Below are positions 5,465 through 25,610 of a stretch of 25,610 nt of DNA, piece by piece. The notes beneath the pieces are model-generated. The model searched no databases. It saw only the letters and a program-made list of their open reading frames with translations, and was not told the DNA's origin. Each line of letters starts with the position of its first letter. Position 1 is the stretch's first letter. This DNA is from a virus. Where the stretch lies: IMG/VR virus record IMGVR_UViG_3300012351_000103, positions 1 through 25,610 of that record, one strand, 5' to 3'. Position numbers and translations under genes: made by a program.

Positions 5465-5470
5465 ATTACC

Positions 5471-6633: not shown

Positions 6634-6674
6634 GATAGACACCCTCCCTTTTTAGTCCTGTTTAAGTATAGCGC

Positions 6675-9042: not shown

Positions 9043-9052
9043 GACCATCTCC

Positions 9053-9697
9053 CTAATTCCACCACTCGAAGTAATCGCCAATCTCCAGCGATGTCCCTGT
9101 ATTAACAGTTTTCAGTCCCCGGGGATTGTAAGCGCTTTCCGGGACACAGCGGAAATCAAAGCTTACCCGGGTCTGCCCAGTTGTGTTCAGCTTGTTCCCG
9201 TGCCGCCAGCGGACAGCATCGAACGTGACAACATCCCCGTATCCTGCCTCTATCGGGGCGAACTCCCCGCTCCCTAGAGCTGATTCGATGAAAACCGAGT
9301 TGGTTCCGAACGTTGCGGTGAACGGGACCCAGAAGTTGATTTCCCCCGGGGAGTGGTTATAGTCCTCGTCAGTATGAAACTCCCCGACCGCGACATTCTC
9401 TGGGAGGTGAACCCGGAAGGTGGGGACAACCTGGTAGCAGAATGGCTCATCAAAACGCGGGGCAATGACATCCGCGATGAACCTGAGATAGCTGGAATGT
9501 ATCTCATCGAAATGCTCATAAAACTGACGGTGGAATTCAGTGGACTGATCTGTCCCGACTTGAAGCACCTCGATGTCCCTGTCATTCTCCAGGTCTTCCA
9601 GGTTGCCCACCTCGAAAATATCACAGAGCAGCTCGCGGAAATTATACTCCGATGGATCGTAGGTAAAGATACGAGGAGGGAATGTTTCCGCGTTCAC
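9053..9697 (-). CDS. HxD...H dioxygenase-like protein, StrG/2OG-oxygenase type
   Basis: 214 residues from a GTG at 9697 that overlaps the upstream stop as GTGA. The core contains H108-T-D110 in GEFHTDEDYNH, H166 in RWRHGN and R177 in QTRVSFDFR. This is the spacing of the iron-binding HxD...H triad plus the Arg that holds 2-oxoglutarate in Fe(II)/2OG oxygenases. The general look resembles the StrG-like proteins seen in aminoglycoside and surface-sugar gene clusters. Placed between a sugar epimerase and a glycosyltransferase, it may hydroxylate or oxidise a sugar or the glycosylated protein. Substrate is unknown. Family membership is fairly well supported, and activity is inferred. Confidence 0.68.
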   Translation of the reverse strand: MNAETFPPRIFTYDPSEYNFRELLCDIFEVGNLEDLENDRDIEVLQVGTDQSTEFHRQFYEHFDEIHSSYLRFIADVIAPRFDEPFCYQVVPTFRVHLPENVAVGEFHTDEDYNHSPGEINFWVPFTATFGTNSVFIESALGSGEFAPIEAGYGDVVTFDAVRWRHGNKLNTTGQTRVSFDFRCVPESAYNPRGLKTVNTGTSLEIGDYFEWWN

Positions 9698-10602
9698 TGG
9701 TATCTCCAGGAGACGAGTTCTTTCAGTCCCGTTTCCAGGTCAACCTGAGGCTCCCACCCAAGCTGCTCTTTCGCTTTGGAGATGTCTGCTTTTTTCCGGG
9801 GAACCGGGTCGATCTTCCTTGCTGGACCATACTCCGGAGAAAGGTCTGATCCCATGATTTCCAGCAGCATTCCCGCAAGATCAGTGAGAGTAGTCTCTAT
9901 TCCGCTGGCAATGTTGAATGCCCCGATGACATTGCCTTGCGCTGCGAGGAGGTTGGCTCTCGCCACGTCCCCGACATACACAAAGTCACGGGTAGCAGTC
10001 CCGTCGCCTTCAATCAGCGGGGGAAGTCCAGAAGAAATCCTGTCCATCCAGCGAGGGAGAACCTCCGTGTAAACTCCGCTGACATCCACCCGGGGTCCGT
10101 ATATGCTGAAATAACGCAACATCACGCAGTCCAGGTCGAGGCTTCTCGCGATACCCTCAGTGAACGCTTTCCCTGCTCCATACAACGTTGTATCGTTGTA
10201 CGAGTGATGCTTCTCATTAGTGGGGAATTCGTCTGCCAGCCCGTAAATACTAGAGGAGCTTGCAGCTATAACTCTTGCCCCGGATATTGCCGCCGCCTGG
10301 AAGACGTTGAGAGTCCCGGTTGCTATCACGTCAATCCCCAGCTGAGGGTCTCCTGCGCACTGCTTGATTTTCACCGCAGCCTGATGGAAGACATAATCCA
10401 CATCTTTCATCAGGCTGCGGACTAGGTATGCATCACGGATATCCCCGTGAATGAAACGAGCCTCACCCGGGATGTTATTCTCATCTCCCCCGGAGAGGTT
10501 GTCCAGAATGAAAACTTCTGCTCCAGCCTCGATGAGCTGATCAGCGATATGACTCCCGACGAGTCCTGCTCCACCTGTTATCAGGCACCGTGAGTCTCTC
10601 AT
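9694..10602 (-). CDS. NAD-dependent sugar epimerase/dehydratase (extended SDR)
   Basis: 302 residues from the ATG at 10602, eight bases after GAAGGAG. The N-terminal Rossmann fold has the GGAGLVG dinucleotide loop (residues 10-16), the acidic LDNLSGG strand end, and HQAA. The active site is SSSSIYG with Y141-x3-K145 (YGAGK). RDFVYVGDVARA is typical of UDP-sugar epimerases and dehydratases. It would interconvert or dehydrate a nucleotide sugar, feeding the aminotransferase and acyltransferase of the same cassette. Length is normal for the family. It follows the GT17 gene with no gap. Whether it acts as a 4-epimerase or a 4,6-dehydratase cannot be decided by eye. Confidence 0.9.
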   Translation of the reverse strand: MRDSRCLITGGAGLVGSHIADQLIEAGAEVFILDNLSGGDENNIPGEARFIHGDIRDAYLVRSLMKDVDYVFHQAAVKIKQCAGDPQLGIDVIATGTLNVFQAAAISGARVIAASSSSIYGLADEFPTNEKHHSYNDTTLYGAGKAFTEGIARSLDLDCVMLRYFSIYGPRVDVSGVYTEVLPRWMDRISSGLPPLIEGDGTATRDFVYVGDVARANLLAAQGNVIGAFNIASGIETTLTDLAGMLLEIMGSDLSPEYGPARKIDPVPRKKADISKAKEQLGWEPQVDLETGLKELVSWRYQ

Positions 10603-11385
10603 TCACATATCTCCTTCAGGTCGGAACCATGACTGCGGACACTTACGTTCCCGTATCCATACAGGGAGGTCATCAGTACCTGCGGGAGACATCTTGGTTG
10701 TCAACCCGAAAGGCTTCCCGTCCTCCCAGGAGTATCCCTGCTCATAAAGCAATCCAGCGTCAGCCCATTCCAGCATCTGGCTAGTAGTCTCACTATGGGA
10801 GGTGACGAGAGCTTTCTGCTTGATAGCTTCCACTCCCCCAAGCCAGGAGAAATGCCACCCTGCACGAGGAATCCGGGGGAAAAAGTTCCTCATGTTCCGC
10901 ATTCTCTCAAGATCCGTAACATCCCTCATCTTCGCGGTGACTGGACCACTCCAAGATTTTGGATGCAGCCAGTCCACGGCGAAGTTATGGAACGACAGTT
11001 CCAGTGCCCGATTGGGAGCCAGGGATTCGAGAATCTCTTTGCGGGGAATCTCATCTACGTCACTCAGGATGATCAGGTCATCCCGATTGGCGTCAGCGAG
11101 CCCCTGCGTGATCCCCCTGCGGTGCGCGATAGCACGTCGGTGGTTATCTCCAGGGACATCCAAGTCAGCTTCGCTGAGCATGACATGGATGATCTTGTCT
11201 TCCCATGCAGAAAAACGTTCCGTATTCTCCGCGTACCAGAAAGGTTTCAGATCACCTTGGTGAGTGACGGCAGCTTCCGCGAGGACATGCTTTACCGGAA
11301 TGTCTTCCAGTTCTCGCAGCCTGCATTCCAGCAGGTCAAGCTCATTATGGAAGAGAAAGCAGTCGTAAATCAATTTGCTGACCAT
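10603..11385 (-). CDS. GT17-family glycosyltransferase
   Basis: 260 residues. The opening KLIYDCFLFHNELDLLECRL, followed by LAEAAVTHQGDLKPFWY, is the signature of GT17 proteins, the family of beta-1,4-N-acetylglucosaminyltransferases. The acidic DXD-type motif appears in LIILSDVDEIPR, and the AHRRGITQGL helix precedes it as usual. The ATG at 11385 overlaps the end of the SIS gene by 16 bases and has only a weak Shine-Dalgarno, suggesting coupled translation. It would add a sugar, perhaps GlcNAc-like, to a protein or a growing glycan. In phages this family often sits among structural or cell-surface sugar genes. Acceptor unknown. Confidence 0.86.
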   Translation of the reverse strand: MVSKLIYDCFLFHNELDLLECRLRELEDIPVKHVLAEAAVTHQGDLKPFWYAENTERFSAWEDKIIHVMLSEADLDVPGDNHRRAIAHRRGITQGLADANRDDLIILSDVDEIPRKEILESLAPNRALELSFHNFAVDWLHPKSWSGPVTAKMRDVTDLERMRNMRNFFPRIPRAGWHFSWLGGVEAIKQKALVTSHSETTSQMLEWADAGLLYEQGYSWEDGKPFGLTTKMSPAGTDDLPVWIRERKCPQSWFRPEGDM

Positions 11386-11927
11386 TCTGCTTTTACATAG
11401 GCAGCAAGAGCATGCAGGATAGCTTGGTGGGCAGTTTCCACGACTCCGTAGTCATGGATTTCAGCCTCGACATGAACATTGACATCAGCTATCATGCGCG
11501 CCTCCCCTCCGGTGAACCCGGTGAGGGAGACTGTTTGCATGCCGTGACTGGTCGCGTAGTCGAGTGCCTTCGCGATATTCGGAGAACGCCCAGAGGAGGA
11601 GATAGTCACCAGCGTGTCCCCGTCTTTCGCAAGCATTTCCAGCTGTACGGAGAACACGTTCTCATACCCGTCGTCGTTACCCGCTGCAGTAAGAATCTCC
11701 GGGGAAGCTCCCAGGGAAATGACACGCATTCCCGCTTTTCCCAGGTCGCAGGCAGCGTGATTCGCAAGTCCCGCTGAGCCGCCATTCCCGCAGAGAAATA
11801 TAACCTTTCCTCTCCTGCGGGTGTCCAGCAGTACCCCGCTGGCTTTATCCAGATCACCCGGGGATATCGCCTTGCAAGCGGTGTCAATCCCGGAGGTCAG
11901 GTCTTTTAGCTGTTCGCTTATTGTCAT
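11370..11927 (-). CDS. SIS-domain sugar isomerase (GmhA-like)
   Basis: 185 residues from the ATG at 11927, overlapping the upstream stop as ATGA. It has the phosphosugar-binding loop CGNGGSAG (residues 46-53) and the second SIS loop ISSSGRSPN (109-117), and ends in a HQAILHALAAYV helix. This matches the GmhA (sedoheptulose-7-phosphate isomerase) branch of SIS proteins in size and layout. GmhA starts the nucleotide-heptose pathway. No other heptose gene is recognisable here, so a different phosphosugar isomerisation is possible. Cytoplasmic. It is translated with the phosphatase and the GT17 gene. Confidence 0.88.
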   Translation of the reverse strand: MTISEQLKDLTSGIDTACKAISPGDLDKASGVLLDTRRRGKVIFLCGNGGSAGLANHAACDLGKAGMRVISLGASPEILTAAGNDDGYENVFSVQLEMLAKDGDTLVTISSSGRSPNIAKALDYATSHGMQTVSLTGFTGGEARMIADVNVHVEAEIHDYGVVETAHQAILHALAAYVKAEWSAN

Positions 11928-12379
11928 TCCGCTAGGATAGCAGAAATCCTGCTAACGACAGCGGGAATGCCCGCTTCGATCAGGTCAAGTGCGTGAGCAA
12001 AATCAGACGCATCCCCAAAGAAAGGATCAGGTATTTCCTCGTCGCAAAACAACTGCACCCGAGTGTCCCCCCCAAGGCTCTGCAAGTCCGTGAGGTTCTT
12101 GTTGTCCATTGCGAGAATCAGGTCATACTCAGCGAGCCAGGAGGACTCAAACTGCCTAGCCAGATGTCCTGATCCATTGTATCCGCGACCAGCCAGGGCT
12201 TTCTGAGCCTCGATATGCATCGGGAGACCAGCATGTCCGGTGTTAGTGCCAGAACTGTCTACGATAACATCCATATCAGACAGCGCAGAACGCAGTACAA
12301 CCTCAGCCATCGGGGAGCGGCAGATGTTCCCCAGGCATACGAGGGAGACCCGGATGGGCAGGCTAATCTCGTTAAACAC
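11924..12379 (-). CDS. Low-molecular-weight protein-tyrosine-phosphatase-like protein
   Basis: 151 residues from the GTG at 12379, five bases after TTAGGAG; upstream in-frame ATGs would extend into the aminotransferase gene. The P-loop VCLGNICRSPMAE gives catalytic C15 and R21 (CX5RS), and IPDPFFG near residue 120 carries the general acid Asp (DPY/DPF form). Length is normal for the family. In bacteria such enzymes dephosphorylate tyrosine kinases that control capsule sugar synthesis; in this phage operon it may remove phosphate from a sugar or a host regulator. No tyrosine kinase gene is in the window. Substrate inferred, fold certain. Confidence 0.92.
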   Translation of the reverse strand: MFNEISLPIRVSLVCLGNICRSPMAEVVLRSALSDMDVIVDSSGTNTGHAGLPMHIEAQKALAGRGYNGSGHLARQFESSWLAEYDLILAMDNKNLTDLQSLGGDTRVQLFCDEEIPDPFFGDASDFAHALDLIEAGIPAVVSRISAILAE

Positions 12380-13421
12380 GGAAACTCCTAACCGCATCAA
12401 CGACCTGTTCAACATCGTTTTCAGTCATGTCAGGGTACAAAGGCAAGGTGACCAGGGTTTTCCATACCCTGTCCGTGACAGGAAGCTCCTGGTATTCCCC
12501 GAAAATCCCATGCTGGTTCAGTGGCTTGTAATGCACTCCCGCTGACACTCCCCAGCGCAACAGGTGAGTGATCAGATCATCCCTGCGTTGTGTTCTCGCG
12601 ACGAACATATGCCAGGAGGAATGCGCATCCCAGGAGGGAAGCTTCAGCCAGTCCAGGTCCCTGAATTCTTTCATGTACGTTAGCACGATCTTCCTGCGCA
12701 GCTCATTCATTTCATCCAGCCGTGCCAGCTGAGCTAGCGCCAGTGCAGCAGTAATGTCATTCATGTCAGCTTTCCAGCCAGCAACAGGAATGTTATAATC
12801 CCAGCTGGACTGTTCTTTATCTATTCCGAAACGCCGTAGCTTCCGTATGCGATCAGCGAGTTCCGCATCATTAGTGGTGATCATCCCGCCGTCACCGGAG
12901 GCAAGATTTTTCACCGCGTTGAACGACCAGCAGGCGGCAACCCCGTTATATCCTGCATGAAGGCTGCCTGCGGCATGAGCGCAGTCCTCGATGATCGGGG
13001 GAGAATGGCGGCAATATGGCGCTATCGCGGCTGTCTTCCCTCCGTACCAGACAGGGATGATAGCACGAGTGCGAGAGTTGACTTTCCGGTCGGCATCTTC
13101 CCAGTCGATGCACAGGGTATCCTCATTGATATCCGCGAAGACAATCTGAGCACCGCTATGCAGCACTGAGAGCCCGGTAGCAGCGAACGTCAGCGCGGGT
13201 ATGATAACTTCCCCGCCGCGAACCCCGAGAGCCTCACAGGCAATCTGGAGAGCACTGGTGCAGTTGCTCACAGCAACTGCATGCTGGATATTCGTGCGTT
13301 TCGCAAACTCCTCTTCCAGTTCCGCTACCTTCGGACCGCAACTCCACCAGCCGCTGCGGAGAACCTCGGTGACGTTCCTGATCTCAAGATCAGAACAACT
13401 AGGGCGAAAAAGAGGGATCAT
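12372..13421 (-). CDS. DegT/DnrJ/EryC1/StrS-type sugar aminotransferase
   Basis: 349 residues from the ATG at 13421, overlapping the acyltransferase stop as ATGA. The family is plain: GWWSCGPKVAELEEEFA at the N-terminus, VSNCTSALQIACEALGV, IIEDCAHAAGS (D147 touches the PLP ring), and the Schiff-base Lys K171 in SFNAVKNLASGDGGM. The end YKPLNQ and LPLYPDMTENDVEQVV are also typical. It should move an amino group onto a keto nucleotide sugar made by a dehydratase or epimerase, giving an amino sugar that the neighbouring NeuD/PglD-like enzyme could acylate. Full length, no missing motif seen. Confidence 0.93.
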   Translation of the reverse strand: MIPLFRPSCSDLEIRNVTEVLRSGWWSCGPKVAELEEEFAKRTNIQHAVAVSNCTSALQIACEALGVRGGEVIIPALTFAATGLSVLHSGAQIVFADINEDTLCIDWEDADRKVNSRTRAIIPVWYGGKTAAIAPYCRHSPPIIEDCAHAAGSLHAGYNGVAACWSFNAVKNLASGDGGMITTNDAELADRIRKLRRFGIDKEQSSWDYNIPVAGWKADMNDITAALALAQLARLDEMNELRRKIVLTYMKEFRDLDWLKLPSWDAHSSWHMFVARTQRRDDLITHLLRWGVSAGVHYKPLNQHGIFGEYQELPVTDRVWKTLVTLPLYPDMTENDVEQVVDAVRSFRV

Positions 13422-14059
13422 CGTTCTACTTCCCGGATGACCCGCGCAGGGTTACCTGCCACCACCGTATACTCGGGAACATCTTTCGTGACCACCGAGC
13501 CAGCCCCGATGACCGAACATTTCCCGATTGTGCGGTGAGGCAGTATCGTTGCGTTCGTTCCCACGAAAACCCTGTCCCCGATGTCCACGCACCCTGAGAC
13601 CGAGACAGCGTGCGCAATGAAACAGGAATGCCCCACCCGGGCTTGATGAGCGATCAGCGCAGCCATGTGAATGCTCGCGTTATCCTCGATAACCGCCGAC
13701 TGCTGGATGTGAACGCCTTCCTGGATGTAAAGTCCAGTCCCAGCGACAACCCCGTTCATGTCAACACTGGGATCGATCAGGCTGGTGAACGTGTATCCGT
13801 TATTTATCAACCGCTGTGATGTTGCGTAGCGTACCGTGCAGTCACTGCTGATCAGGTTGACGAACGAGACTCCAGGCAAATCGAGGGTTTCGAGCGCCTC
13901 AAATCCCCCGAGCACCGGGTACCCGGCGAACGATGTTCCCCATTTTGCGGGATCGTCATCAATGAACCCGAGGATGCTCACGCTTGGATCAGCCGCGACC
14001 ACTCTAGCGAGCAGTCGTTCCACATGCGGATTGGAAGCCCCGAGAAGAACTATCTTCAC
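13418..14059 (-). CDS. NeuD/PglD-like sugar O/N-acyltransferase
   Basis: 213 residues from a GTG at 14059 overlapping the methyltransferase stop (GTGA). The N-terminal third is a nucleotide-sugar-binding Rossmann-like part (KIVLLGASNPHVERLL, GFIDDDPAKWG, YPVLGG). The rest is a left-handed beta-helix of hexapeptide repeats, with the usual histidine in the ALIAHQARVGHSCFIAHAV stretch, ending GAGSVVTKDVPEYTVVAGNP. PglD and NeuD proteins acetylate amino sugars or sialic acid from acetyl-CoA. Directly followed by the DegT aminotransferase, it suggests an acylated amino sugar. Acyl donor and site cannot be told. Confidence 0.9.
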   Translation of the reverse strand: MKIVLLGASNPHVERLLARVVAADPSVSILGFIDDDPAKWGTSFAGYPVLGGFEALETLDLPGVSFVNLISSDCTVRYATSQRLINNGYTFTSLIDPSVDMNGVVAGTGLYIQEGVHIQQSAVIEDNASIHMAALIAHQARVGHSCFIAHAVSVSGCVDIGDRVFVGTNATILPHRTIGKCSVIGAGSVVTKDVPEYTVVAGNPARVIREVER

Positions 14060-14619
14060 GAGACCCGCTTATGCACGATTGCCATCCCGTAACGGAACAG
14101 GACTGAATCACATTCAGAATCACGAGCTTTCAGCAAACTCAGCAGAGATGCCACCGTCCTGAGCATCTCCGGTTCGTACTGGGTGGGGACAAGTCCCGGG
14201 AACCCGACATACCAGTCTTCGATGACGTAATATCCACCAGGGTTAACCCGGGACCACAGGATCTCGAAGGTTCTCTTCGAAAGTGTCCCGCTATGGCTGG
14301 CATCTTCCACGACAAGATCGAAAGGACCAAGTTCAGCAAGGGAAGGATCATCCTGGTTCCTGACCACCTGTACTGTTCCCTGAGGCCATATTGCACTGGG
14401 ATTATTATCCACCCCGAGGATCTCCCCGAGCGGAAACAATCCCTGCCACATCCGCAAGGATTCACCCTCGTAAACCCCTACTTCGCAGATCTTCCCGAAA
14501 GGACCGATGTCCGCAGCAATCTTCAGGTACTCCTGAAAATATCCATGTGGTTCAATCTTGTCTGTCTCAATGTAGCTTGGTATTTGCCTGCCAGCAGAAT
14601 ACGGGTACAGGTAAGCCAT
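14056..14619 (-). CDS. Class I SAM-dependent methyltransferase
   Basis: 187 residues from the ATG at 14619, eight bases after AGGAGG. The SAM-binding strand-loop is ICEVGVYEGESLRMW, then GEILGVDNNP with the acidic residue for the ribose, and FDLVVEDASHSG, which corresponds to motif IV. The GGYYVIEDWYVG motif resembles macrocin O-methyltransferase and CmcI-like families that act on glycans and antibiotics. As first gene of the cassette it may cap a sugar by O-methylation. It follows a long hairpin, and the next gene starts at its stop codon. Substrate inferred from neighbours only. Confidence 0.83.
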   Translation of the reverse strand: MAYLYPYSAGRQIPSYIETDKIEPHGYFQEYLKIAADIGPFGKICEVGVYEGESLRMWQGLFPLGEILGVDNNPSAIWPQGTVQVVRNQDDPSLAELGPFDLVVEDASHSGTLSKRTFEILWSRVNPGGYYVIEDWYVGFPGLVPTQYEPEMLRTVASLLSLLKARDSECDSVLFRYGMAIVHKRVS

Positions 14620-14635
14620 CTATTTATCCTCCTGG

Positions 14636-14671
14636 GTTCACCGGGAGAGTGATTAGCCCCTCCCGGTGAAC
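14636..14671 (-). terminator. Strong stem-loop ahead of the glycan cassette
   Basis: A perfect 12-bp inverted repeat (GTTCACCGGGAG at 14636-14647 and its complement at 14660-14671) has a 12-base loop. There is no U-tract on either strand. It stands between a decoration candidate and the methyltransferase, just before the latter's Shine-Dalgarno. It may weaken transcription into the cassette or protect the upstream mRNA end. Confidence 0.6.
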
Positions 14672-14680
14672 TACAGGATA

Positions 14681-15202
14681 CTACAGAATACTTCCGCGAA
14701 CAGAAACCTGCCCGTACGTGGGGGTAACAGCGAAAATGAGATCTGTTGTCCCGTGCGCGAACTGCGCCGGGGTTGACGTGGAAACAGTAGTCGTCCCTAC
14801 TGAGGTGGCGACATTCAGAACCTCCTGACCAGAGGTCCACAGGGTGCTCCCGATAATGAACTGCGTTCCCGGGGGGAGTGCTGCTACCGCACCAGTAGAG
14901 AAAATCTGGGTGGTGCTGCCCGCAGTTCCAGCGGTGCTCACCGTCCCCAGAAGTGCTCCCTGGGTGACTGCGGAAATTGCGTACAGCGGGGAGAGAACGT
15001 TGGTCAGCCTCACCGGTTCGGTGCTCGGGGGAATAGGAAGCCCGGTGGTGGTGGTGACGTTCGCCTGTCCCACGTAAATGGTGTTCCTCCCGAAGTTGTG
15101 AAGAATAACCGTATTCGGGAGAGTCGTCACCGGGGTAAACAGCCACGTCGGGGTATAAGACAGGTTCACCCAGTTGGGGGAACCTGGAGGAAGGTTAGGC
15201 AT
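14681..15202 (-). CDS. Beta-rich virion protein, head decoration candidate
   Basis: 173 residues from the ATG at 15202, five bases after AAGGAG. There are very few charged residues and much Thr, Ser, Val, Pro and Gly. The first half has TIYVGQANVTTTTGLPIPP and PLYAISAV, a strand-turn pattern common in small phage capsid and fibre proteins. The second half (about 97-157) has GQEVLNVATSVG and STPAQFAHGTTD, which resembles modules in the major tail protein and connector. It is second after the major capsid gene and just before the glycan cassette. Decoration of the capsid is the best guess. No enzyme motif seen. Confidence 0.62.
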   Translation of the reverse strand: MPNLPPGSPNWVNLSYTPTWLFTPVTTLPNTVILHNFGRNTIYVGQANVTTTTGLPIPPSTEPVRLTNVLSPLYAISAVTQGALLGTVSTAGTAGSTTQIFSTGAVAALPPGTQFIIGSTLWTSGQEVLNVATSVGTTTVSTSTPAQFAHGTTDLIFAVTPTYGQVSVRGSIL

Positions 15203-15668: not shown

Positions 15669-17582
15669 TTAGCTGAAAGGCGAAACGTCGCTAACCTGGA
15701 GTCCCTGGAGGATTCCGCTGTACATGGGAGCATGTGCAACGAGAGTCCCAAGCAGGAAAATGGAATAGCGGAAGGAAGCGTCAATGACAGGCCATGCAAC
15801 ACTGACATAATCTTGCACGCAGGTCATTTCCCACGCATTGTCAACATGACTCCACGTCTGCGGAAGCTGGTAGCTCATCAGCAGCGCGGTACCCTGGCTC
15901 ATCCACGGGTGGACAGTCAGTTTGACAGTGCTCCGGGTAACTGGGTTGACAAACTCGGCAACCGCAGCGCCAGCGCGAATTCCGCCAATCTGCGACTGGT
16001 CAATGTTCAGCAGGTAGTTAAGAGCGCTACCCTGGTTGAGCATGTCATTCGCGAGCCTCATCAGATCACCGCCATCGGCAATGATCTCAGAAGGATCAGC
16101 CTTGAAAACCCCGGGGGTGACATTGTTCATGCCATTGTTTTCCCACAAGGCATCCAGTGCGGTGAAAATAACATTGGTGCTCAGGTGAGTTCCGACACTC
16201 TGGTTAACGTATCCGCCTTTCCAGACATTCCCGCCCCCGAACCCGACGTTCGTGTAAGGACCAGTCCCGGTCGCGGAAAGACCCGTCAGGGTGGGGATCA
16301 GCCCTTCCATCCGGTTTCCGGAGCCAGTGCCAGTATCCGCACTCGGGGCAGATCCGTTAGCAGCAACCGGGTCAGCGCCCTGAATGGTGAACCGGGTACC
16401 CCCGACAGCATTCGCGGTCTGTGCACCGCTGGTGGTAACCCCTGCCTGAACCGAGGTACCCGCCATCAGATAAATGGTGGCAGAGTTCCCCGCGTAATAA
16501 ATGTTGTACTGCTGAGCACCTGCAACCGGGACAATGGTCACGTCAATGACCTGCCCGGCGACAGTGGTAACAGTCGCGGCGGTGCTTGCTGCGGTCTCCC
16601 CGAAATAGTTCAGCGCGGTAACCGAAACACGAGCAGTACCAGTCGTGGTGACAGCGGTCTCATTCGAGCCTGCTGTACGGGCAACCAGGGTGACAGCGGA
16701 AGGCTTGGTGAGAGCCTGCGAAGACCCTGCGATCATCTGGTATTCTTCACCCAGCATCATTTCCTGGAGAAGCACCAGGTTTGCCAGCGCGGAAATGTCC
16801 TCAAAGCCCTGACCTTCAAACTGAGCCAGCCACGAAAGCGACTCAGTGAGTCCGAAGAAACGATACGGGACATTCAGCTTGAACTCAGTCTGCTTACCAG
16901 AAGCAGGCAGGTTGAGAGGCCACTGGGTACCGGCAAGAGTTCCACCTGACTGGACAAGCTCAGGAATCGAAATGTCGATGACACCCTGACCGCCAGTCTG
17001 AGAACCGCTAACCCCGAGCAGCCCGTAAACCTGACGCGATGCGCCCTGTCCGGCGGGACGAGGAAACTTATTGCGGAACAGAGTGTACACCGGGTAGATA
17101 AGACGAGATGGTGCAAGCAGGTCGAAAGGCACCAGTCCATACGGTGCCCCGTTAAGCCCCAGGTTCCCCGCAGTGAAAGACTTTCCGAGGGCGATGTCCT
17201 GAGACTTGCGAACTTCCGCGTCATTCCTCAGCTGCATTCCCAGACCCTGGTAACGCTGAGGTGCCTGCTTCCATAGCTCAGGGTTAATGCGAGATACGGT
17301 GTCAGCGGAATTCCACCGACCATCGAAAGCAGCAGCCCGGGTGTCAAGGATCGCCTGATGCGACTTGGACAGGATCTGAGTGCTGTGCGCACCCTCGTTA
17401 AGGGGACGCCCGTCATTGGTAATATGCCCGACGCCTTTGACAAGGGACTTGGTGAGGGTGGTCATAGTACCCTCATAATCGGACCGGCGAGCTACACGCT
17501 CACCGAAAGCACTGGCACTGCCAGCAGAAGACCCGCCCATTCCGGGGGCGGTAACCTCATCGGCAGTAAGAATGTCAGCCAT
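15669..17582 (-). CDS. Major capsid protein with Ig/Fn3-like insertion
   Basis: 637 residues from the ATG at 17582, after GAGG. Gene order (protease-scaffold before it, small decoration candidates after it) and sequence both fit a HK97-fold major capsid protein: an N-terminal delta-like region (to about 140), then PVYTLFRNKFPRPAGQGASR, the SLSWLAQFEGQGFEDISALANLVLLQEMMLGEE spine helix region (quoted here as residues 248-279 only in outline: SWLAQFEGQ, then QEMMLGEE), and a C-terminal strand set (TALLMSYQLPQ to SIFLLG). Residues about 293-400 are a Thr/Val/Ala-rich beta-sandwich insertion (VTALNYFGETAAS, QYNIYYAGN) of Fn3/Ig type. This domain likely projects from the shell. The protein is larger than simple HK97 subunits because of it. 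Confidence 0.85.
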   Translation of the reverse strand: MADILTADEVTAPGMGGSSAGSASAFGERVARRSDYEGTMTTLTKSLVKGVGHITNDGRPLNEGAHSTQILSKSHQAILDTRAAAFDGRWNSADTVSRINPELWKQAPQRYQGLGMQLRNDAEVRKSQDIALGKSFTAGNLGLNGAPYGLVPFDLLAPSRLIYPVYTLFRNKFPRPAGQGASRQVYGLLGVSGSQTGGQGVIDISIPELVQSGGTLAGTQWPLNLPASGKQTEFKLNVPYRFFGLTESLSWLAQFEGQGFEDISALANLVLLQEMMLGEEYQMIAGSSQALTKPSAVTLVARTAGSNETAVTTTGTARVSVTALNYFGETAASTAATVTTVAGQVIDVTIVPVAGAQQYNIYYAGNSATIYLMAGTSVQAGVTTSGAQTANAVGGTRFTIQGADPVAANGSAPSADTGTGSGNRMEGLIPTLTGLSATGTGPYTNVGFGGGNVWKGGYVNQSVGTHLSTNVIFTALDALWENNGMNNVTPGVFKADPSEIIADGGDLMRLANDMLNQGSALNYLLNIDQSQIGGIRAGAAVAEFVNPVTRSTVKLTVHPWMSQGTALLMSYQLPQTWSHVDNAWEMTCVQDYVSVAWPVIDASFRYSIFLLGTLVAHAPMYSGILQGLQVSDVSPFS

Positions 17583-17618: not shown

Positions 17619-20396
17619 TTACTCAGTAATTCCGCCACGCTTGTCCAGCTCGCTACGAGCTGCTTCGCGCTCGTACGGGTTTTCACTCGTACGCCAGATG
17701 TGCGACAACTGGCGGTTAATCATCTGCTGAGTATGCTCCGCAATCTCAGCCTGCTTGGTCACAGCCACCGGCTGTGCCGACTTCATGGCAAGACCTGCCC
17801 ATGAAGTAGTCTTAGGGTCAGCAGCATCAGCGATACCCTCCCACCGAGCCTCCTGCTCAGTGATGGTCGCTTGCTGCTTGTTCATCTGCTCCATTAGCGG
17901 GGCAAGAGCCTCCGCAATGGCAGATTTGATAACATCCGAATCAAGAGTTGCACTCTTGACAATCTCAGGAGCCTCTGCCTTCTCGACGGGAGCGGGAGTC
18001 TCAATCGTGAACCCGAGAGCCTTGAGAGCCTCGTCGCGGGTGATCTCTCCCGCCTCGAACTGTGTCTTGACAAGCTCCGCCTGCTGCATTTCCAGCGCCT
18101 TCTGAGTGACCCTGCGACCCAGCTTGGTGCGAGCCTCGTCTACGGTCATCTTGCCCGCGAGAACCTTCTTCCCCAGCTTCTTCTTCATTCCCTTTTCTGC
18201 GAGAACGAGGAATTCAGGGGAAATCTCAGGAGTTTCGCCAGCCTTAGAGACAACCGCAGCAGTCTCGGAAGGCTCAACCTGCTTGCCCAGACCAGCAGCC
18301 GGGGGTACAGGAGAAGACTCGGGCTGCGCAACATTCGGGATCATCGGGCACAGCGGGGGGAACATCCGCGAAAGGTTGTCGTGAATCAGGGAAAGCGCCT
18401 GGCGTGCCTTCTCTTTTTCGATATGCGCATAATCGATGTGCGCAGGAACGCCCTGCTCTGCGGGATACTCAGCTCCGCCTTTCATGTGAGAAGGACTCGG
18501 GGACTGGTGTCCTGATGCCAGCGGGGGACGGTCAAATGAATGCGCGTTAGGCGAACCGGTTGCAACATCCGGGGAAGAGTTGGGTGCGCCATACCCCGGG
18601 GAGTTGGCTGCATGTCCAGCGGTAATCACCGGACGAGAATAGCCGCCCGGGGACATTGAACCAGGGGAAGGGTAAGACGAAGGACCAGGGTTGGCATCCC
18701 TGAACGCCTTATGCATCTCCAGGCGGTAATCGTTCAACTCAGCAGCGTTCGCGGATTTGAGGGTCTGTGCTGCGCTCCACGCCTTCGTCAGCTCCATCGC
18801 GGTCTCAATCGGACCGCAGGCTGCGTCAACAGCCTTACGCTGCCACATGTCCAGGTCAATCACGGAGGAAAAGTCCGCGTACGGGTGGTACTTGGCAACC
18901 TCATCCGGGTGGTACGCGGGGCAAGTCAAGTCGTGCAGCTTACCCAGGTCCGTATCAATGCCAATAGCCTTGAACCGCATAAGAGCAGCAGTCTCAGGAG
19001 AACCCCCGACAGTCTTCAGGTCAGGGGTGCGGATTCCTGCGGGTGCGGGAGTCTCCAGAGCAGGTCCGGTGTTGGGAATCTCGTCCATTGCGGGAGCATC
19101 GGCACCGCTGACAGACTGGGGAGTGCCAGAGCACTTCTCAGTGTGAACGTGATCCATCTTGCAATCAGAAGAGGAACTGCCAGAATCGTCGTCGTCCCCG
19201 TCAGAATCAGGCTTGTTCAGCCACGGGGGCATCTTCTTGCCCCCCTTGGGCTTCTTGGCAGCCTTCTCCTCGTCAGCAGCATCAGATGCAGTGTCATCAT
19301 CATCATCTTTCAGCATTGCGGCGTCAAGATCCTTGCCTGCGCCCATGCCCATGCCCGTGAGGTCATCCTTGAGGACATCCGGGGTAGTAGTCTCATCGAC
19401 CACACTGGTGGTTCCTTTCCCCGAGTCCTCGGAGGAGTCATTACTGAGTGGGTTAGCCACACCAAGTTCCTTAGCCCTTCTGGCAATAAGGCGCTTGGCA
19501 CCTTCTGCATTGCCGTGTCCTGTCTGTGCGAGATGCGCGGCGTTATGCAAGTCTCCGCTGTTCGCGATCGGGTAGCTCCCGTCAGAGAGAGCATTTCCTT
19601 CGGATGCGAGGCTCCTGCGCTCCGCAGTACTGACATTGCGCTTGTACACTGCCTCTTCCGCCTCATACAAGGCTTTTGCGGCAAGCTCGTCATAATGCTG
19701 GTCAATGATCTTCGACTTGAGGATTTTCGCCAGATCATTCGGGGTGAATGTGAGACTCATGTCGTCCGCGAAAGGAACATTATCTGAGCCATTCTCCGGG
19801 GTATGAACAATCCCGCCTTTTGCGAGTTCAGGTGCGGAGAATTTAGCGATAATCTCATCATCCGCGTGCATCTCCTGAACGAACTCGCAGTTACCGTCAG
19901 CAGACTTGGCGATATCCAGGTACGAAGACTTGTTACTGGGACGATCAACCACGGATACTTCCGCGAAGTCCCCTCCGCAGATCCTCCCGTTACGGACCCT
20001 TGGGTCATGCTTGATGACAGGGCGGGAGATTCCCACGCTATAAGCCTGGAGAACGCCCTTCTTGATCAGCTTCTGTGCGAGAGGATCAACGATGACAGCG
20101 GTCAGCCAGTGCTTGTCTGTGCCATCCTTGTTGATCTCGACTTTGAGACCCTTGCCAATGGGACGATGAGCATCATGGGACATCCGCACGTTAGCCCCGG
20201 TGGCAAGCCATTCCCCGAGAGCTTTTGCACTCCACACAGGGTCCACGATCTGGTCGTCAGAATCGACTGTGCCATCCGTGGCAACCCCTTTGATTACGAG
20301 GTCTCCATCATCATCCACGTCCCATTTAACGATGGGAATTGAAATATGCACGAGATCCTGTGCGCTCTCCGGGGGAGTAGCTAGCATAGTAGCCAT
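17619..20396 (-). CDS. Prohead protease (XkdF/HK97-type) fused to a scaffold-like region
   Basis: 925 residues from the ATG at 20396, four bases after AAGGAG; the longer frame from 20468 has no such site and runs through the terminator hairpin. Residues 15-165 are the serine protease: VIKGVATDGTVDSDDQIVDP, H74 in RMSHD, S120 in AYSVGI, then FAEVSVVDRP. About residues 275-325 (SDGSYPIANSGDLHNAAHLA and RLIARRAKELGV) look like the DUF6582 module often joined to phage head proteins. Next come acidic Asp/Ser tracts, a Pro/Ser/Gly-rich linker, and a C-terminal charged helical part of about 250 residues resembling a scaffold. The protease would cut itself and the scaffold away during head maturation. 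The unusual length reflects this fusion. Confidence 0.82.
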   Translation of the reverse strand: MATMLATPPESAQDLVHISIPIVKWDVDDDGDLVIKGVATDGTVDSDDQIVDPVWSAKALGEWLATGANVRMSHDAHRPIGKGLKVEINKDGTDKHWLTAVIVDPLAQKLIKKGVLQAYSVGISRPVIKHDPRVRNGRICGGDFAEVSVVDRPSNKSSYLDIAKSADGNCEFVQEMHADDEIIAKFSAPELAKGGIVHTPENGSDNVPFADDMSLTFTPNDLAKILKSKIIDQHYDELAAKALYEAEEAVYKRNVSTAERRSLASEGNALSDGSYPIANSGDLHNAAHLAQTGHGNAEGAKRLIARRAKELGVANPLSNDSSEDSGKGTTSVVDETTTPDVLKDDLTGMGMGAGKDLDAAMLKDDDDDTASDAADEEKAAKKPKGGKKMPPWLNKPDSDGDDDDSGSSSSDCKMDHVHTEKCSGTPQSVSGADAPAMDEIPNTGPALETPAPAGIRTPDLKTVGGSPETAALMRFKAIGIDTDLGKLHDLTCPAYHPDEVAKYHPYADFSSVIDLDMWQRKAVDAACGPIETAMELTKAWSAAQTLKSANAAELNDYRLEMHKAFRDANPGPSSYPSPGSMSPGGYSRPVITAGHAANSPGYGAPNSSPDVATGSPNAHSFDRPPLASGHQSPSPSHMKGGAEYPAEQGVPAHIDYAHIEKEKARQALSLIHDNLSRMFPPLCPMIPNVAQPESSPVPPAAGLGKQVEPSETAAVVSKAGETPEISPEFLVLAEKGMKKKLGKKVLAGKMTVDEARTKLGRRVTQKALEMQQAELVKTQFEAGEITRDEALKALGFTIETPAPVEKAEAPEIVKSATLDSDVIKSAIAEALAPLMEQMNKQQATITEQEARWEGIADAADPKTTSWAGLAMKSAQPVAVTKQAEIAEHTQQMINRQLSHIWRTSENPYEREAARSELDKRGGITE

Positions 20397-20517: not shown

Positions 20518-20985
20518 TCAATGGTGGGATGCTTTCAGTTTTTCCCACTCAGCGAGAGCAGCACGAGAGGCTTCGACTACTTCTGGATGAACGTTACCTT
20601 TCCCTGACGCCCATCGTTTTGCAGCGTTAATTGCCGTCGCGATAGCCTGACTCTCGTCCATCCCGTTCCGGATGAGAGCGTGTGCAATATTTTGCAGGTA
20701 CGCTGGAAGAGACTGTCGTTCCGTGGTGTGACTGTCCGGGGTGTGCCACAATCCCCGGGTTCCCAGAGGATTGTGAGTACTGGACAGCGCGGGAGTACGT
20801 TCCGACTTACTCAATTCAGCCTCCCAGCGATCACAAACATCCTCAGGTTCGATAAGCCCTTTCACTAGAGTGCATGAATGCGACTCAAAGTCTGGAGCAT
20901 TCAAGCGGATCATCACGCAGTTCCCGCAATGCCTCGAACTGTCAGCAGGACGATAGTTGACGCTCTCCTTGCTGACTTTGTTCAT
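20518..20985 (-). CDS. Small four-cysteine protein (HiPIP-like cysteine spacing)
   Basis: 155 residues from the ATG at 20985; the site before it is weak (GGGACAGG). The N-terminal half has VNYRPADSSRHCGNC, SCTLVKGLIEPEDVC and DRW: four cysteines spaced C-x2-C-x14-C-x12-C. High-potential iron-sulfur proteins use nearly this spacing (C-x2-C-x16-C-x13-C), and comparable modules are met in phage head genes, but an iron-sulfur or zinc site is only inferred. The C-terminal half (LQNIAHALIRNGMDESQAIA, then AAKRWASGKG and ALAEWEKLK) is helical and resembles parts found in phage head/protease proteins. The gene ends just before the promoter of the protease gene. Function unknown. Confidence 0.7.
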   Translation of the reverse strand: MNKVSKESVNYRPADSSRHCGNCVMIRLNAPDFESHSCTLVKGLIEPEDVCDRWEAELSKSERTPALSSTHNPLGTRGLWHTPDSHTTERQSLPAYLQNIAHALIRNGMDESQAIATAINAAKRWASGKGNVHPEVVEASRAALAEWEKLKASHH

Positions 20986-21572: not shown

Positions 21573-22616
21573 ATGCAAAATATACAGGATTACCTTCCTG
21601 GGTTTGAGCCCAACGAAGATGATCTCGTTCTCGAAAAGAGATGTTCTGTTGTAAATTCTGCAAGCGAAAGATGTGACCGTCTTGTTGGTAAACATGGTGC
21701 CCAAGAAATGTGCCCTGGACACTATCAACGCTTGAAAACAAAGTGGGGCATCGAACCTGATCGTCCACTAGGAGTGCGAGCGGTAGGCAGGAGCGGTCCT
21801 GCCGAGACGCTCACGGTTACTCCGGGTCAGCGCTTCGGTAAAGGTGTGGTTATCGGTGCGAACGAGCGAATTCGCAAAGGGACAGGAACCCGACGAGCAG
21901 CCCGACTTATGTGCGACTGCGGCAACGAATATATTGCCATAGTCAGTGACGTAATCAACGGGCGAAAAGTGTCTTGCGGATGCCTCAAAGGCGTAGTCCA
22001 GACAGAACAAGGAGTAGGCAGGGTTGTTAACCGGACGGGACGAAAGTACGGGCGACTCACTGCTATTCAGTATGTCGGCAACGAGGAAGGTTATAAAGGA
22101 GGAGCACTTTGGCTATGCAGATGCGATTGCGGAAACGAAGCGACTGTTTCCTCGGGTGCTTTGATGTCGAAAAACAAAGCAAGTTGCGGATGCCTGAAGA
22201 GAAAGCCGAGAGTTACGCAAACAGCTAGAAATACCGTACTCAGTCACTATCGGAGCAGTGCTCGGCGGCGAGGTCATGTCTGGGAGCTTGATGACTACTT
22301 CGACAAGCTGACCTCAATGAACTGCCATTACTGCGGACGCTCACCAGGTAACATACAAAAGGTCTATAGAGTATACGAACCAGCTGGTCGCGAGTTTGCC
22401 TACAACGGTATAGACCGAGTAGATAACAAGCTCGGTTACACCATAGACAATGTAGTCACGGCTTGCAGTATCTGTAATAATGCCAAGAAGGCTATGTCAT
22501 ACAATGACTTCACAGCATGGATCAAAGACCTTGTGACTTATTCTGCAAGTCGGAACCAGAGTGGAATTGACTTGAGTGAGTCTCTTCCACAGCCTGGAGA
22601 TCGTCACTCTGAATAA
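21573..22616 (+). CDS. HNH homing endonuclease with zinc-finger repeats
   Basis: 347 residues. The frame is open further upstream to 21300, but that part is antisense to the 53-residue gene and unlike coding sequence; the ATG at 21573 follows a good promoter. The N-terminus has a finger with C24, C34, C47 and H50 (CPGHYQR), like that of the HNH gene at 4901-5464. Two copies of a CDCGN...SCGCL repeat follow (113-139 and 182-208), a DNA-binding element common in phage homing nucleases. The nuclease core has CHYCG (C251, C254), GIDRVDN (D281, D284) and ACSICNNAKK (C298, C301, N302). It is the only plus-strand gene and overlaps the end of the portal fusion gene by 95 bases, tail to tail. A mobile intruder. 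Confidence 0.9.
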   Translation: MQNIQDYLPGFEPNEDDLVLEKRCSVVNSASERCDRLVGKHGAQEMCPGHYQRLKTKWGIEPDRPLGVRAVGRSGPAETLTVTPGQRFGKGVVIGANERIRKGTGTRRAARLMCDCGNEYIAIVSDVINGRKVSCGCLKGVVQTEQGVGRVVNRTGRKYGRLTAIQYVGNEEGYKGGALWLCRCDCGNEATVSSGALMSKNKASCGCLKRKPRVTQTARNTVLSHYRSSARRRGHVWELDDYFDKLTSMNCHYCGRSPGNIQKVYRVYEPAGREFAYNGIDRVDNKLGYTIDNVVTACSICNNAKKAMSYNDFTAWIKDLVTYSASRNQSGIDLSESLPQPGDRHSE

Positions 22617-25610
22617 AGCCAACGTAAGCAAGAACAGGCTGTCCCAGCTTGCGTCTCGCTAGTGCCCTGTGGTGACCGTCAACAATAAATGCTCGATCTT
22701 GCCCTGGACGCTGAACTAGGACGCTAGGATTCGTGTGCCCGCGATTCGCCTTGATGTCTCTCGCGAAACGACTGACTGCATCAGCCTGATGCGATGCTGC
22801 CCAACTATCGATTGAGTCATCATCGACCCGCTCCCAGGGGATCTGTATAGGTCCAATCCAGCGAGTGCGCTTTACCCATTCGATACTCTTTTCCGGGAAG
22901 TTCGACCTGAGTTGATTCAGGACATGTTCCGGGGCAGTCTCGTTTGGATCGCTGTAATCGCTTGGACCTCCAGGCTTGGAAGGGTCTGCAAGATCGGCAT
23001 CAGGATTCAGGTCTCTTTTTGGAGTCGCAAAACTGCGTTCGTTGTAGTAGTTTCTTTCAGTCATCAAGTCAAGTGCCATTTGTACGCTATAAGCGCTTTT
23101 CTCGACAGCTGCTCCCTTTTTAGCAGGCGGGAGATCGTGAACAATATCACTTTCTGCCTCGGGGGACCACTGCTCAACAGTATCCCCCGGGTCAAAAGTC
23201 TCAGGAGGCTCTGAATGCGGGTTCATCGGCCTCGGGGTTCTCGCGGGGACTGACCCTACTACGGGGTGTATCCCTTTCCCGCTCGGGGGTATTCCCGTGT
23301 TCGCGGACACGTCCTGAACTCCGGGGGAGTCAACTTCTTGCTCGTCCGGGTCTACGAGGGGGAATCCGCCAGGGGGGGTCTTCTTGCGTCTCGCGGGGGG
23401 AACGTCTCGCTCCTCGGGGAATTCATCCTCGTGACCATGTGGATACACCCTCGTTTGCAGGGGGGTATCCATCATGTTTGCCTCGAAATGAGGCGGGTTC
23501 CCGCCTGGGGTAACACCAGGATAGCCTCCGGGTCCCGCGTCCCCGTACTCTTCCCCGTTTGAGTGGTGAGGGTAAGGCCATCGTGCCCCCATGCCAGCAC
23601 CATGTCTGTCAGGGTCGTCCAGGACCATCCACTCCCCGTTCTCGTTGACCATGTTTTGCAGGGACTTCATGTCCCCTAGCTGATCACGGAGATGAATTTC
23701 TTTCACCCAGTCGTCGCGGAATTTCCCGACAAGATCGAGGTCTTCAATCTCACCCCTGCGGAACCATCCCGTGGACAGGGTTTCCTCTGGAGTGGAACCA
23801 TTCATCAGCGGCTTGAACATGCTGGTTTCGCACAGATACAGGTACGCGGTTTGTCCATCCGGGTCCTGGTGAGTGAAATCACGTATCACGGCGAGTGCGG
23901 GGAGAACTCCGATTTCCTCTTCAGTCTCCCGGTAGGCAGCACTCCACCCAGATTCGTTGACGTGAGTGGTTCCCCCGGGCATTCCCCAGGAACCATCAGG
24001 ACGCTGCTGGAGCAGGTAACGCCATTTCCCCTTCTCGTCCTTCGCGCGGATAAGCAGCCATGCGGTCCGGGCGTGGTCCTCTACCTCAGACTTTCCCAGA
24101 TGAGACTGAGGAGGGATGACATCCATTCCCGCAGGGAGGGGGACGCAGCGGCACTGAATATGCAGGGGACCGCCGAGACCCCCGCTGGAGAACGGGGAGT
24201 CCAGGGGGATAGCACCCTCGTTCGCGACCCTTTTGCAGATCTTGCAAGGGTCGTCCGGGGCTATCCCCAGCTGCTTATGGGTAACCCCGTTATCCCGGTA
24301 GCATTGAATGACACCCGCGTTCATGGCACGGGCAATCTCAGTCCTCGCGATAACCTCACTGCGGGAACTCGCGTTTTTCAGTCCTGTCCGGGCAATCTGG
24401 TCCAGCCAGTGAGCGCCTTCGGTATCGAGGAATGCCTGGAGATTGTCAGTAGTCCCCAGAATTCCCGCATCCTTTCCGAGAAGCTGATTCGCGGAGTCAT
24501 ATCCTAGATTCCACGCTTTCTCCCAAAGCGGGGTCATGACTCCTGCGAGAGTCTCCCTGACTTTCTCGGAGATCAGATCGTACATCACCCTGTTCGGGAC
24601 CATCAGCTTCCCCATCGCCACTTCCTGGCGGATCGCGGAACCTGCCTCTTCCGCTTTCCCGAAACCCTGGGCAATCTCCTGCTTATATCTCCCGATCAGT
24701 CCTAGATCATGCTCCCAGCCGGGAAAAGGAGTTGCTGACTTTCCAACAAAGTCCTTGTGATTACAGTAAGTGTTGTCACAGTAGATGTCGTGAAGATATT
24801 CAGGATCGTGAGCAGGGAATCCTTTGTTTGCATCTTCTTCGTCAAAAGGGTCAACGAGACGCTCGTCATCTATCGACCAAGACTTGTTCAGGGAGTTCTC
24901 TTCAATATTCATAGCGCGGTCAATCGCGGTGTCCAGCGTGACACCTTCCGCGATATCCTCCGCGATCATCCCCAGGGTTTGACTGGAAATATGTACCGGA
25001 GTCCAGGTGGCGATGTCCCTGCCCTTGCGGAGATGGCGTTTCAGGGACTCCAGCTCAAAAGCTGCACCTTTCTTACGGGAACCTGCCGTGCTCGTCCGGG
25101 AAGTAGTCCCCCCTGTTCTCGGGGTGGGAGACTGAACGGCACCCTGGGCAGCGGAATGCTGCGGAGTTCCCGTGCCTTCACGATGAGGACTCAGCGGAGC
25201 GGGATGACTCCCGTTTGGCTTGGTACCCCCGCCTTTCCGGGGCTTAGGCTTCTTTTTGACAGCTTTCTGTCCCCCGTTGGTTCCCTGACCGCCGCCAGCC
25301 CCGCTTTGTGCCGCCATCATGATCAGTTCTGACGCCATCTTGACGGGAACAGGACCCTGTGCAGTGAAGACAACAGGCTCGCCAGTCTCCTCAAGACCCC
25401 ACGGGGGAAGATCAAGACGCTCGCGAACCTCATCAATCGACGCAATTGCGTTCTGTACCTGCTGTACGCCCAGCTCGGTGATAGCCTGCTTGTCTTCGTC
25501 GTTGACGAGACCCTCGAACTGGAACTGCATGTCGTGCTGATTGCAGATATCCTGTATCGCGTAATTGAAAATATTGCAGACGAATTTGAGGAGAGGCTTC
25601 GCGGATTTCC
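22522..25610 (-). CDS. Portal (C-terminal part)-MuF-Nudix-ParB-like fusion protein, 5' end off window
   Basis: The frame is open to the right edge, so the start is missing; numbering here is from the Met codon at 25530. The first 70 residues (KFVCNIFNYAIQDICNQHD just upstream, then IDEVRERLDLPPWG) are the end of a portal protein. A Lys/Gly/Pro linker leads to the MuF minor-head domain (about 360-465: IARTEIARAMN, DDPCKIC, PLHIQCRC). Next is a Nudix domain (about 484-610) with an intact Nudix box from G520 to V542 (key residues E526, R534, E535, E538, E539, G541). After a 200-residue Pro/Gly/Asp-rich linker comes a ParB-like domain with FIVDGHHRALARRKLG (948-963). Portal and MuF are virion parts near the DNA exit; the two enzyme-like domains may therefore be packaged and injected. 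All motifs look intact, without frameshift. Confidence 0.9.
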   Translation of the reverse strand, partial: KSAKPLLKFVCNIFNYAIQDICNQHDMQFQFEGLVNDEDKQAITELGVQQVQNAIASIDEVRERLDLPPWGLEETGEPVVFTAQGPVPVKMASELIMMAAQSGAGGGQGTNGGQKAVKKKPKPRKGGGTKPNGSHPAPLSPHREGTGTPQHSAAQGAVQSPTPRTGGTTSRTSTAGSRKKGAAFELESLKRHLRKGRDIATWTPVHISSQTLGMIAEDIAEGVTLDTAIDRAMNIEENSLNKSWSIDDERLVDPFDEEDANKGFPAHDPEYLHDIYCDNTYCNHKDFVGKSATPFPGWEHDLGLIGRYKQEIAQGFGKAEEAGSAIRQEVAMGKLMVPNRVMYDLISEKVRETLAGVMTPLWEKAWNLGYDSANQLLGKDAGILGTTDNLQAFLDTEGAHWLDQIARTGLKNASSRSEVIARTEIARAMNAGVIQCYRDNGVTHKQLGIAPDDPCKICKRVANEGAIPLDSPFSSGGLGGPLHIQCRCVPLPAGMDVIPPQSHLGKSEVEDHARTAWLLIRAKDEKGKWRYLLQQRPDGSWGMPGGTTHVNESGWSAAYRETEEEIGVLPALAVIRDFTHQDPDGQTAYLYLCETSMFKPLMNGSTPEETLSTGWFRRGEIEDLDLVGKFRDDWVKEIHLRDQLGDMKSLQNMVNENGEWMVLDDPDRHGAGMGARWPYPHHSNGEEYGDAGPGGYPGVTPGGNPPHFEANMMDTPLQTRVYPHGHEDEFPEERDVPPARRKKTPPGGFPLVDPDEQEVDSPGVQDVSANTGIPPSGKGIHPVVGSVPARTPRPMNPHSEPPETFDPGDTVEQWSPEAESDIVHDLPPAKKGAAVEKSAYSVQMALDLMTERNYYNERSFATPKRDLNPDADLADPSKPGGPSDYSDPNETAPEHVLNQLRSNFPEKSIEWVKRTRWIGPIQIPWERVDDDSIDSWAASHQADAVSRFARDIKANRGHTNPSVLVQRPGQDRAFIVDGHHRALARRKLGQPVLAYVGFIQSDDLQAVEETHSSQFHSGSDLQNKSQGL

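Follow-up and report, generated by a model that had tools for sequence, protein, structure and literature searches.

The stretch analyzed here, referred to below as the window, is an entire IMG/VR virus record (IMGVR_UViG_3300012351_000103; 25,610 nucleotides), and the gene under study is the portal gene at its right-hand end. On the minus strand, the open reading frame (ORF) at 22522-25608 runs without a stop over 1028 amino acids and is open at the contig edge, beyond which the portal gene continues. It encodes the C-terminal part of a portal protein, followed by MuF and Nudix domains and by a C-terminal domain carrying the motif DGHHRALA. A previous reading made from the letters alone (the sequence-only reading) had placed these four modules in a single polypeptide, a claim borne out by Pfam and PHROG matches and by the same chain in full-length relatives; of the portal part, which is indeed present, only the last ~90 residues of the core lie inside the window. 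That reading counted residues from an ATG at 25530, and its Nudix box (G520-V542) corresponds to residues 546-568 of the open frame, whose numbering is used below. The gene comprises the following features.

25324-25608, minus strand: C-terminal end of the portal core (positions 419-506 of 506 in the PORTAL profile; PHROG and Pfam portal matches)
24730-25323, minus strand: portal-MuF linker, including a small conserved region and a stretch that varies in length, as defined by alignment
24739-24741, minus strand: lysine of the predicted cut site FVGK/SATPFPGW, which ends the portal-MuF linker
24115-24729, minus strand: MuF (minor head protein) domain, helical in the AlphaFold2 model
24079-24099, minus strand: predicted cut site SHLGK/SEVED between MuF and Nudix (K506)
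23698-24075, minus strand: Nudix hydrolase domain
23653-23673, minus strand: predicted cut site GDMK/SLQN after Nudix (K648)
23029-23688, minus strand: long Pro/Gly-rich disordered linker
23086-23124, minus strand: predicted cut sites PPAKK/GAAVEK/SAYS ahead of the ParB-like module
22537-22956, minus strand: ParB/sulfiredoxin-fold module
22525-22545, minus strand: C-terminal tail QNK/SQGL

On the window fragment, Pfam returned NUDIX above its cut-off (E=1e-10) and weak matches to Phage_Mu_F and Phage_portal, while the PHROG portal and minor-head families matched clearly. The MuF core is assigned by its match to the PHROG minor head protein family (2.5e-10), with Pfam Phage_Mu_F at 7e-4, below cut-off, and the NCBIfam SPP1 gp7 domain at 1e-3; the domain also carries a CxxC...HxxCxC ligand set at 24145-24246. 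In the full-length relatives L002 and L009 (L numbers designate related loci), which span 1414 amino acids from the ATG used, a complete portal domain stands in front, and the PHROG portal match of the full-length homologue reaches 3.5e-48. Relatives of about this length encode portal, MuF, Nudix, a disordered linker of ~250 residues and the ParB/sulfiredoxin-fold domain in one gene. In agreement with this layout, AlphaFold2 modeled the part from MuF to the end with MuF and Nudix folded, a disordered linker of ~250 residues (predicted local distance difference test, pLDDT, about 25-30) and a folded last domain. Compared with L009, its nearest relative, the window is under purifying selection, with a nonsynonymous-to-synonymous substitution ratio (dN/dS) of 0.06 in the portal end (identity 0.94), 0.08 in MuF and 0.06 in Nudix.

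Scans of viral contigs yielded 19 and then 65 loci encoding relatives of the portal chain, and profile searches of the reading frames in these loci gave portal-MuF-Nudix-ParB as the commonest chain. This module order recurs in dozens of contigs from other samples. The sequence-only reading had named a sequencing error joining separate genes as a possible refutation; we tested for this and did not find it, as the same chain occurs in dozens of independent contigs. The portal-MuF-Nudix-ParB chain is real and conserved. With the window chain as query, tblastn retrieved no phage record at 1e-5; a search of the same type with the full-length homologue, at a loose limit, did find relatives.

The Nudix box of the window, GTTHVNESGWSAAYRETEEEIGV, lies at 23905-23973 and fits GX5EX7REUXEEXGU, with T at a U position. 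Regular loss of box residues in homologues, a second refutation named at the outset, was not seen: the box is intact in 46/46 Nudix domains, a count that leaves out a 47th profile match (L063) that is short, spurious and without a box. Three loci that seemed to lack Nudix (L049, L060 and L062) proved to carry a second Nudix type missed by the first profile. The model of the domain adopts the alpha/beta Nudix fold, with Z scores of 13.3 to RenU (6uuf) and 12.8 to Ap4A hydrolase (1ktg) and a match to Dcp2. Profile searches agree with the fold search, their top solved relatives being RenU, diphosphoinositol phosphatases and Ap4A hydrolases; by tblastn, Aeromonas phage NudE matched weakly (2e-3). 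Among solved structures, those nearest to the domain are RenU, Ap4A hydrolases and Dcp2/MutT types, and not clearly NudE.

The last module bears DGHHRALA at residues 977-984 (22657-22680), and DGHHR is kept in 52/53 homologous domains, the single exception reading DGRHR, so that the second motif named by the sequence-only reading is also intact. When the entire C-terminal model was used for a fold search, the matches listed were all Nudix structures and none was ParB-like, and we therefore modeled the module alone (pLDDT 88). It then matched sulfiredoxin (Z 8.5), PadC (8.2), Noc (8.0), ParB (7.2) and SerK (6.4), and all of the 34 fold matches listed were of sulfiredoxin, PadC, Noc, ParB, SerK, SbnI or a related type. 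Its best sequence match is the free serine kinase SerK (E=7.6e-4), with a shared IVDGHHR aligned to 5x0e, and the NCBIfam SerK match (6e-4) is far below the family cut-off. The module shares the DGHHR-type motif of SerK/SbnI and is not a full kinase of this family, which measures ~240 amino acids: it has ~140, and only profile residues 51-109 align. Pfam showed no match to the C-terminal helix-turn-helix (HTH) DNA-binding and dimerization parts of ParB, and the chain ends at or just after the sulfiredoxin-like domain. The label "ParB-like" is therefore right for the fold, while the motif and best sequence matches belong to the SerK/SbnI branch; as the fold comes without the HTH part, the module is better described as a nucleotide-binding enzyme than as a ParB. 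Since the Nudix box and DGHHR are intact and dN/dS is low in Nudix and MuF, the enzyme-like domains are being kept as such.

The modules of the portal/MuF chain are swapped, reordered, joined by 2H phosphoesterases and split into adjacent genes. A 2H phosphoesterase (Pfam 2_5_RNA_ligase2) is inserted between MuF and Nudix in L023, L025 and L072 and placed after ParB in L054, L067 and L068. The second, different Nudix type follows ParB in L049, L055-L057, L059, L060, L062 and L064, and in four further loci a domain of the next gene is fused to the chain end. In L025, L026, L038 and L040, the ParB-like module is encoded by a downstream gene of its own. In L038 this gene (5466-6233) starts right at the border and the lysine motif described below is lost, as expected if a separate gene needs no cut. 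Two other loci, L022 and L071, with ParB outside the main chain, may represent sequencing frameshifts and were excluded as gene-splitting cases.

The borders between modules share a lysine followed by a small residue, K[SAGN]. In 27-residue border windows, the motif is found before ParB in 38/39 homologues, before Nudix in 33/40, after Nudix in 29/38 and before MuF in 35/47; in 12-residue windows after ParB, where the chain continues, it is found in 19/20, and on each side of 2H in 5/6. Random windows in the same proteins contain it at frequencies of 0.30 (27 residues; 0.21 inside domains) and 0.15 (12 residues). Arginine is rare before [SAGN] at borders (0.10-0.26), and KS and KG are underrepresented in the Nudix and ParB cores (z about -3). 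A simple K[SAGN] count comparing linkers with cores gave a mild enrichment and is superseded by these border-specific tests. In the window, the motif before ParB sits ~50 residues upstream of the module because of an insert. New junctions created by independent shuffles retain K[SAGN] (MuF-2H, 2H-Nudix, ParB-SMALL, ParB-2H and 2H-SMALL), and in L072, where the long linker is missing, the Nudix end EHVTK is joined straight to the ParB start GAAD. Most chains with ParB as their last module terminate in ...N[KR] and continuing chains read ...NK-S/G/A, so that a cut after the lysine would restore a natural end; in the window it would give the QNK terminus natural in other homologues. In homologues such as L013 and L015, NALK-A or AAMK-A is conserved ~10-15 residues from the start, which suggests, from sequence, that the portal may have a short propeptide too.

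Recombination breakpoints fall at the same borders. Nucleotide identity between the window and L005 drops from 0.84 to 0.66 across the Nudix module and then recovers, with breakpoints at residues 504 (496-507) and 650 (646-658), spans that include K506 and K648. Identity to both L005 and L009 falls again at residues 826-828 (breakpoints 815-828 and 827-833), adjoining K830/K831, and from there on the ParB module of the window is closer to L013 (80% identical). As a control, codon-order shuffling gave at most 11.0 log-likelihood units, against 26.6 observed.

The same dipeptide appears in the genes downstream of the portal gene, listed here in the order in which they follow it.

20518-20985, minus strand: next gene, 155 amino acids, whose C-terminal ~100-residue domain, after LSK/SERTP (20791-20814), is joined to the end of the portal chain in L015-L017 and L073
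17619-20468, minus strand: prohead protease (S78-like) fused to a scaffold (Peptidase_S78 E=0.002, below cut-off, in the homologue L017)
19893-19913, minus strand: predicted self-cut site DIAK/SADG of the protease-scaffold (K[SAN] after the protease domain in 45/45 rows)
15669-17582, minus strand: predicted major capsid protein, from its position after the protease-scaffold
17163-17189, minus strand: predicted capsid maturation site LGK/SFTAGN (conserved K[SNA]FTAxN)

In the capsid protein, K-[SAN]-FTA stands directly before the conserved core in 23/24 sequences (R-S in the remaining one), and the sequence ahead of it is variable. The scaffold parts are enriched in KS, KA and KG (z 7.0, 6.8 and 3.7). 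The HK97 capsid protein is also cleaved between lysine and serine. In HK97 the part removed is a scaffold domain of ~102 residues (PMC12749128). Among plus-strand ORFs of 60 amino acids or more in the loci retrieved, 26 that encode the capsid protein contain the extended signature K[SNA]FTAxN..GLxP[FY]DL, and the only others with it are four portal chains (L060, L062, L067 and L068), which carry it directly behind the ParB module.

Based on these results, we propose that the portal gene of this soil-phage family encodes a polyprotein, of which the portal part (expected to be a 12-mer) and the MuF part would form the portal vertex. Covalent attachment would take one Nudix and one ParB/sulfiredoxin-fold enzyme per portal subunit into the prohead, hence 12 copies of each. 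The S78-like prohead protease, encoded two genes downstream, would then cut at the K/S, K/A, K/G and K/N borders, the same kind of site that it is predicted to use in trimming the capsid protein and itself. The freed enzymes would stay inside the head, leave with the DNA at infection and most likely act early on nucleotide-derived host signals or host nucleotides. We consider it probable that the chain is such a polyprotein, with its modules freed at K-small borders and ejected with the DNA. The wider idea, that the portal ring is a loading device which takes in swappable enzymes by the counted dozen, and that the head protease frees them at cut sites resembling the capsid maturation site, or copied from it in some relatives, has in our view slightly better than even chances. 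The sequence-only reading had also raised the possibility of injected cargo, an idea that these observations support. As for function, the catalytic motifs are conserved under the low dN/dS given above, two Nudix types have been recruited and 2H phosphoesterases occupy the same slots. Because Nudix and 2H modules share one slot, removal of nucleotide signals is suggested, and the target is probably nucleotide-signal defenses.

Several points weigh against this proposal. The protease is assigned from a sub-threshold Pfam match and gene order, and the capsid protein from position and conservation rather than from a fold search. As a motif, lysine plus a small residue is weak and loose, and the border counts overstate its significance because homologous borders are not independent. 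Several other residues (such as P, A or G) are also frequent before [SAGN] in some border windows, and the motif is absent before Nudix in 7/40 and before MuF in 12/47 homologues. Moreover, a conserved K-A (AAKAYQG) and a KA enrichment of z 10.2 are found in the portal core, and these cannot all be cut sites.

The strongest alternative is that the chain stays whole, the 12 portal subunits keeping their Nudix and ParB-like domains in the head on flexible linkers, where they would act in packaging or head maturation, for example by clearing nucleotides or handling DNA ends. This would suit the single open frame, the long flexible linker, the conserved motifs and the structural nature of MuF and portal. 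However, the K[SAGN] borders are common to the capsid and protease sites, and four portal chains carry the capsid maturation signature, a match that argues for release from the portal by the prohead protease; nor is permanent attachment needed, since the modules also occur as separate adjacent genes in the four loci named above. We therefore find this explanation unlikely, and the placement of the enzymes in the DNA channel or beside it, as in the sequence-only reading, is not supported as something that must be permanent. A little less likely still, the lysine borders might reflect composition or recombination hot spots, with linkers swapped by homologous recombination in conserved edge DNA and K-small as the signature of a hinge. 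Breakpoints do coincide with module borders, and the linkers are rich in small residues (background 0.23-0.39), but the same dipeptide marks the borders of the capsid protein and the protease-scaffold, which are different genes, the FTAxN signature is common to capsid protein and portal chain, and arginine behaves unlike lysine.

It is improbable that the modules are toxin-like effectors for phage or bacterial competition, paired with a matching immunity gene. MuF proteins are described as bearing swappable C-terminal effectors, as in the MuF polymorphic toxins (PMC5512222; PMC3482391). Nudix, 2H and ParB/sulfiredoxin modules are not typical toxins, however, and here they are near-constant, with intact motifs, in apparent large actinobacterial phages; no immunity-type gene was recognized adjoining the modules, though no systematic search for one was made. 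Finally, an assembly artefact or chimaeric gene, to which a single metagenomic contig ending inside the gene might lend itself, can be practically dismissed given the same order in dozens of contigs from other samples and the Nudix dN/dS.

If the polyprotein proposal is true, delivery would be stoichiometric, at 12 per virion, and the cut sites could be read from the sequence; any effector fused between two lysine borders would be predictable as head cargo. The proposal would also offer a straightforward explanation for the way in which portal/MuF chains gather nucleotide-directed enzymes (Nudix, 2H and ParB/sulfiredoxin modules) and swap them freely. How enzymes are loaded into heads in defined numbers is an open question outside T4, P1 and the giant phages.

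Other features of the chain and its surroundings were noted. In L002 and L009, the portal chain has the motif DPRWWQYPVGWNL near its N terminus (residues ~59-71), which recurs as DPTWWKYPVGWNL at ~673-690, in the variable stretch before MuF, as seen by alignment and by a second PORTAL profile match. An in-frame insert of roughly 300-380 residues interrupts the portal domain in L024, L025, L026, L040 and L073, and reads intein-like in L025 and L026. The portal gene is closely followed, on the other strand, by a 347-residue HNH endonuclease-type gene (21573-22616, plus strand; PHROG HNH 1.1e-23) that overlaps its last ~95 bases; L009 has a corresponding short gap without the HNH insertion. A second HNH endonuclease gene (4901-5464, minus strand; PHROG 2.7e-34) lies among the head-tail genes. 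A block at 8332-15202 (minus strand), situated between the genes for the capsid protein and the head-tail adaptor (5647-6642), matches a nucleotide-sugar epimerase, an aminotransferase, a methyltransferase and a glycosyltransferase, and is perhaps a sugar cassette decorating the virion; a further glycosyltransferase lies at 1152-2354. In eight related records searched for the terminase family PF05876, none was found. WhiB is present in 6/17 and Lsr2 in 1/17 related records, genes that point to actinobacterial hosts. One partial match from a genome scan, in a contig of a Methanoregulaceae metagenome-assembled genome, was rejected as host evidence and taken as a misbinned viral contig.

Phage proteins with several domains have been described before, and in this light the sequence-only reading, which treated the fusion as unusual, went too far as regards Nudix, whose fusions to portal and to MuF are on record (PMC9503650) and also occur in phages that have been isolated. 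The polyvalent proteins of phages and conjugative elements (Iyer et al. 2017) carry several effector-type domains per polypeptide among head genes, and the window chain has the same makeup, with Nudix and ParB/sulfiredoxin modules (2H in relatives) attached to portal-MuF next to protease and capsid genes. In that work, MuF or portal is likewise fused to enzyme domains, with ParB/sulfiredoxin, 2H and other nucleotide-directed domains recurring, while its available portions do not describe the portal-MuF-Nudix-ParB order, lysine borders shared with the capsid or release by a prohead protease (PMC5512222). The ParB domain of DdrB is presented there as a distinct family, marked by lineage residues and by an additional helix bearing a conserved Tyr, and adjoining an autopeptidase in P1 DdrB (PMC5512222). 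Iyer et al. 2022 (PMC9503650) described NudE-type Nudix domains joined to MuF, to portal or to prohead protease; there too Nudix is part of a head protein, and packaging and injection were proposed to direct it against NAD/ADP-ribose signals. In the window chain, the Nudix domain stands after MuF and before a ParB/sulfiredoxin module, and its nearest structures are not clearly NudE. Head-packaged Nudix, 2H and ParB modules have been proposed as injected counter-defense effectors (PMC9503650; PMC5512222). No report of a maturation protease cutting a portal polyprotein turned up in the literature collection searched. The novelty lies in the polyprotein-like look of the chain; polyvalent phage proteins with several domains, and the fusion of Nudix to portal or MuF, were already known.

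Among cultured actinophages, gene 3 of the Arthrobacter phages Mufasa8 and Sonali encodes portal, Nudix and MuF in a single chain, and the presumed scaffolds (Mufasa8 gp5 and Sonali gp6) are strongly enriched in K-S. Unlike in the window, Nudix stands between portal and MuF and is of the second type, and no ParB-like module was recognized. In Burkholderia phages Bcep1, Bcep43, Bcep781 and BcepNY3, the gene in which the Nudix match falls bears the annotation portal protein or NUDIX hydrolase; the host group is unrelated. The SerK/SbnI free-serine kinases share with the last module the ParB/sulfiredoxin fold and IVDGHHR, but only ~60 residues align and the kinases extend well past the end of the phage module. 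For processing by a head protease, T4 gp21 cuts head proteins at a common motif. Likewise, the prohead protease of the giant phage SPN3US, gp245, cuts the capsid protein, the portal protein and packaged proteins at a common motif (PMC10052503), as proposed here. The SPN3US and T4 cuts remove propeptides after glutamate (AXE in SPN3US), whereas the cuts predicted here follow lysine and would free folded enzymes.

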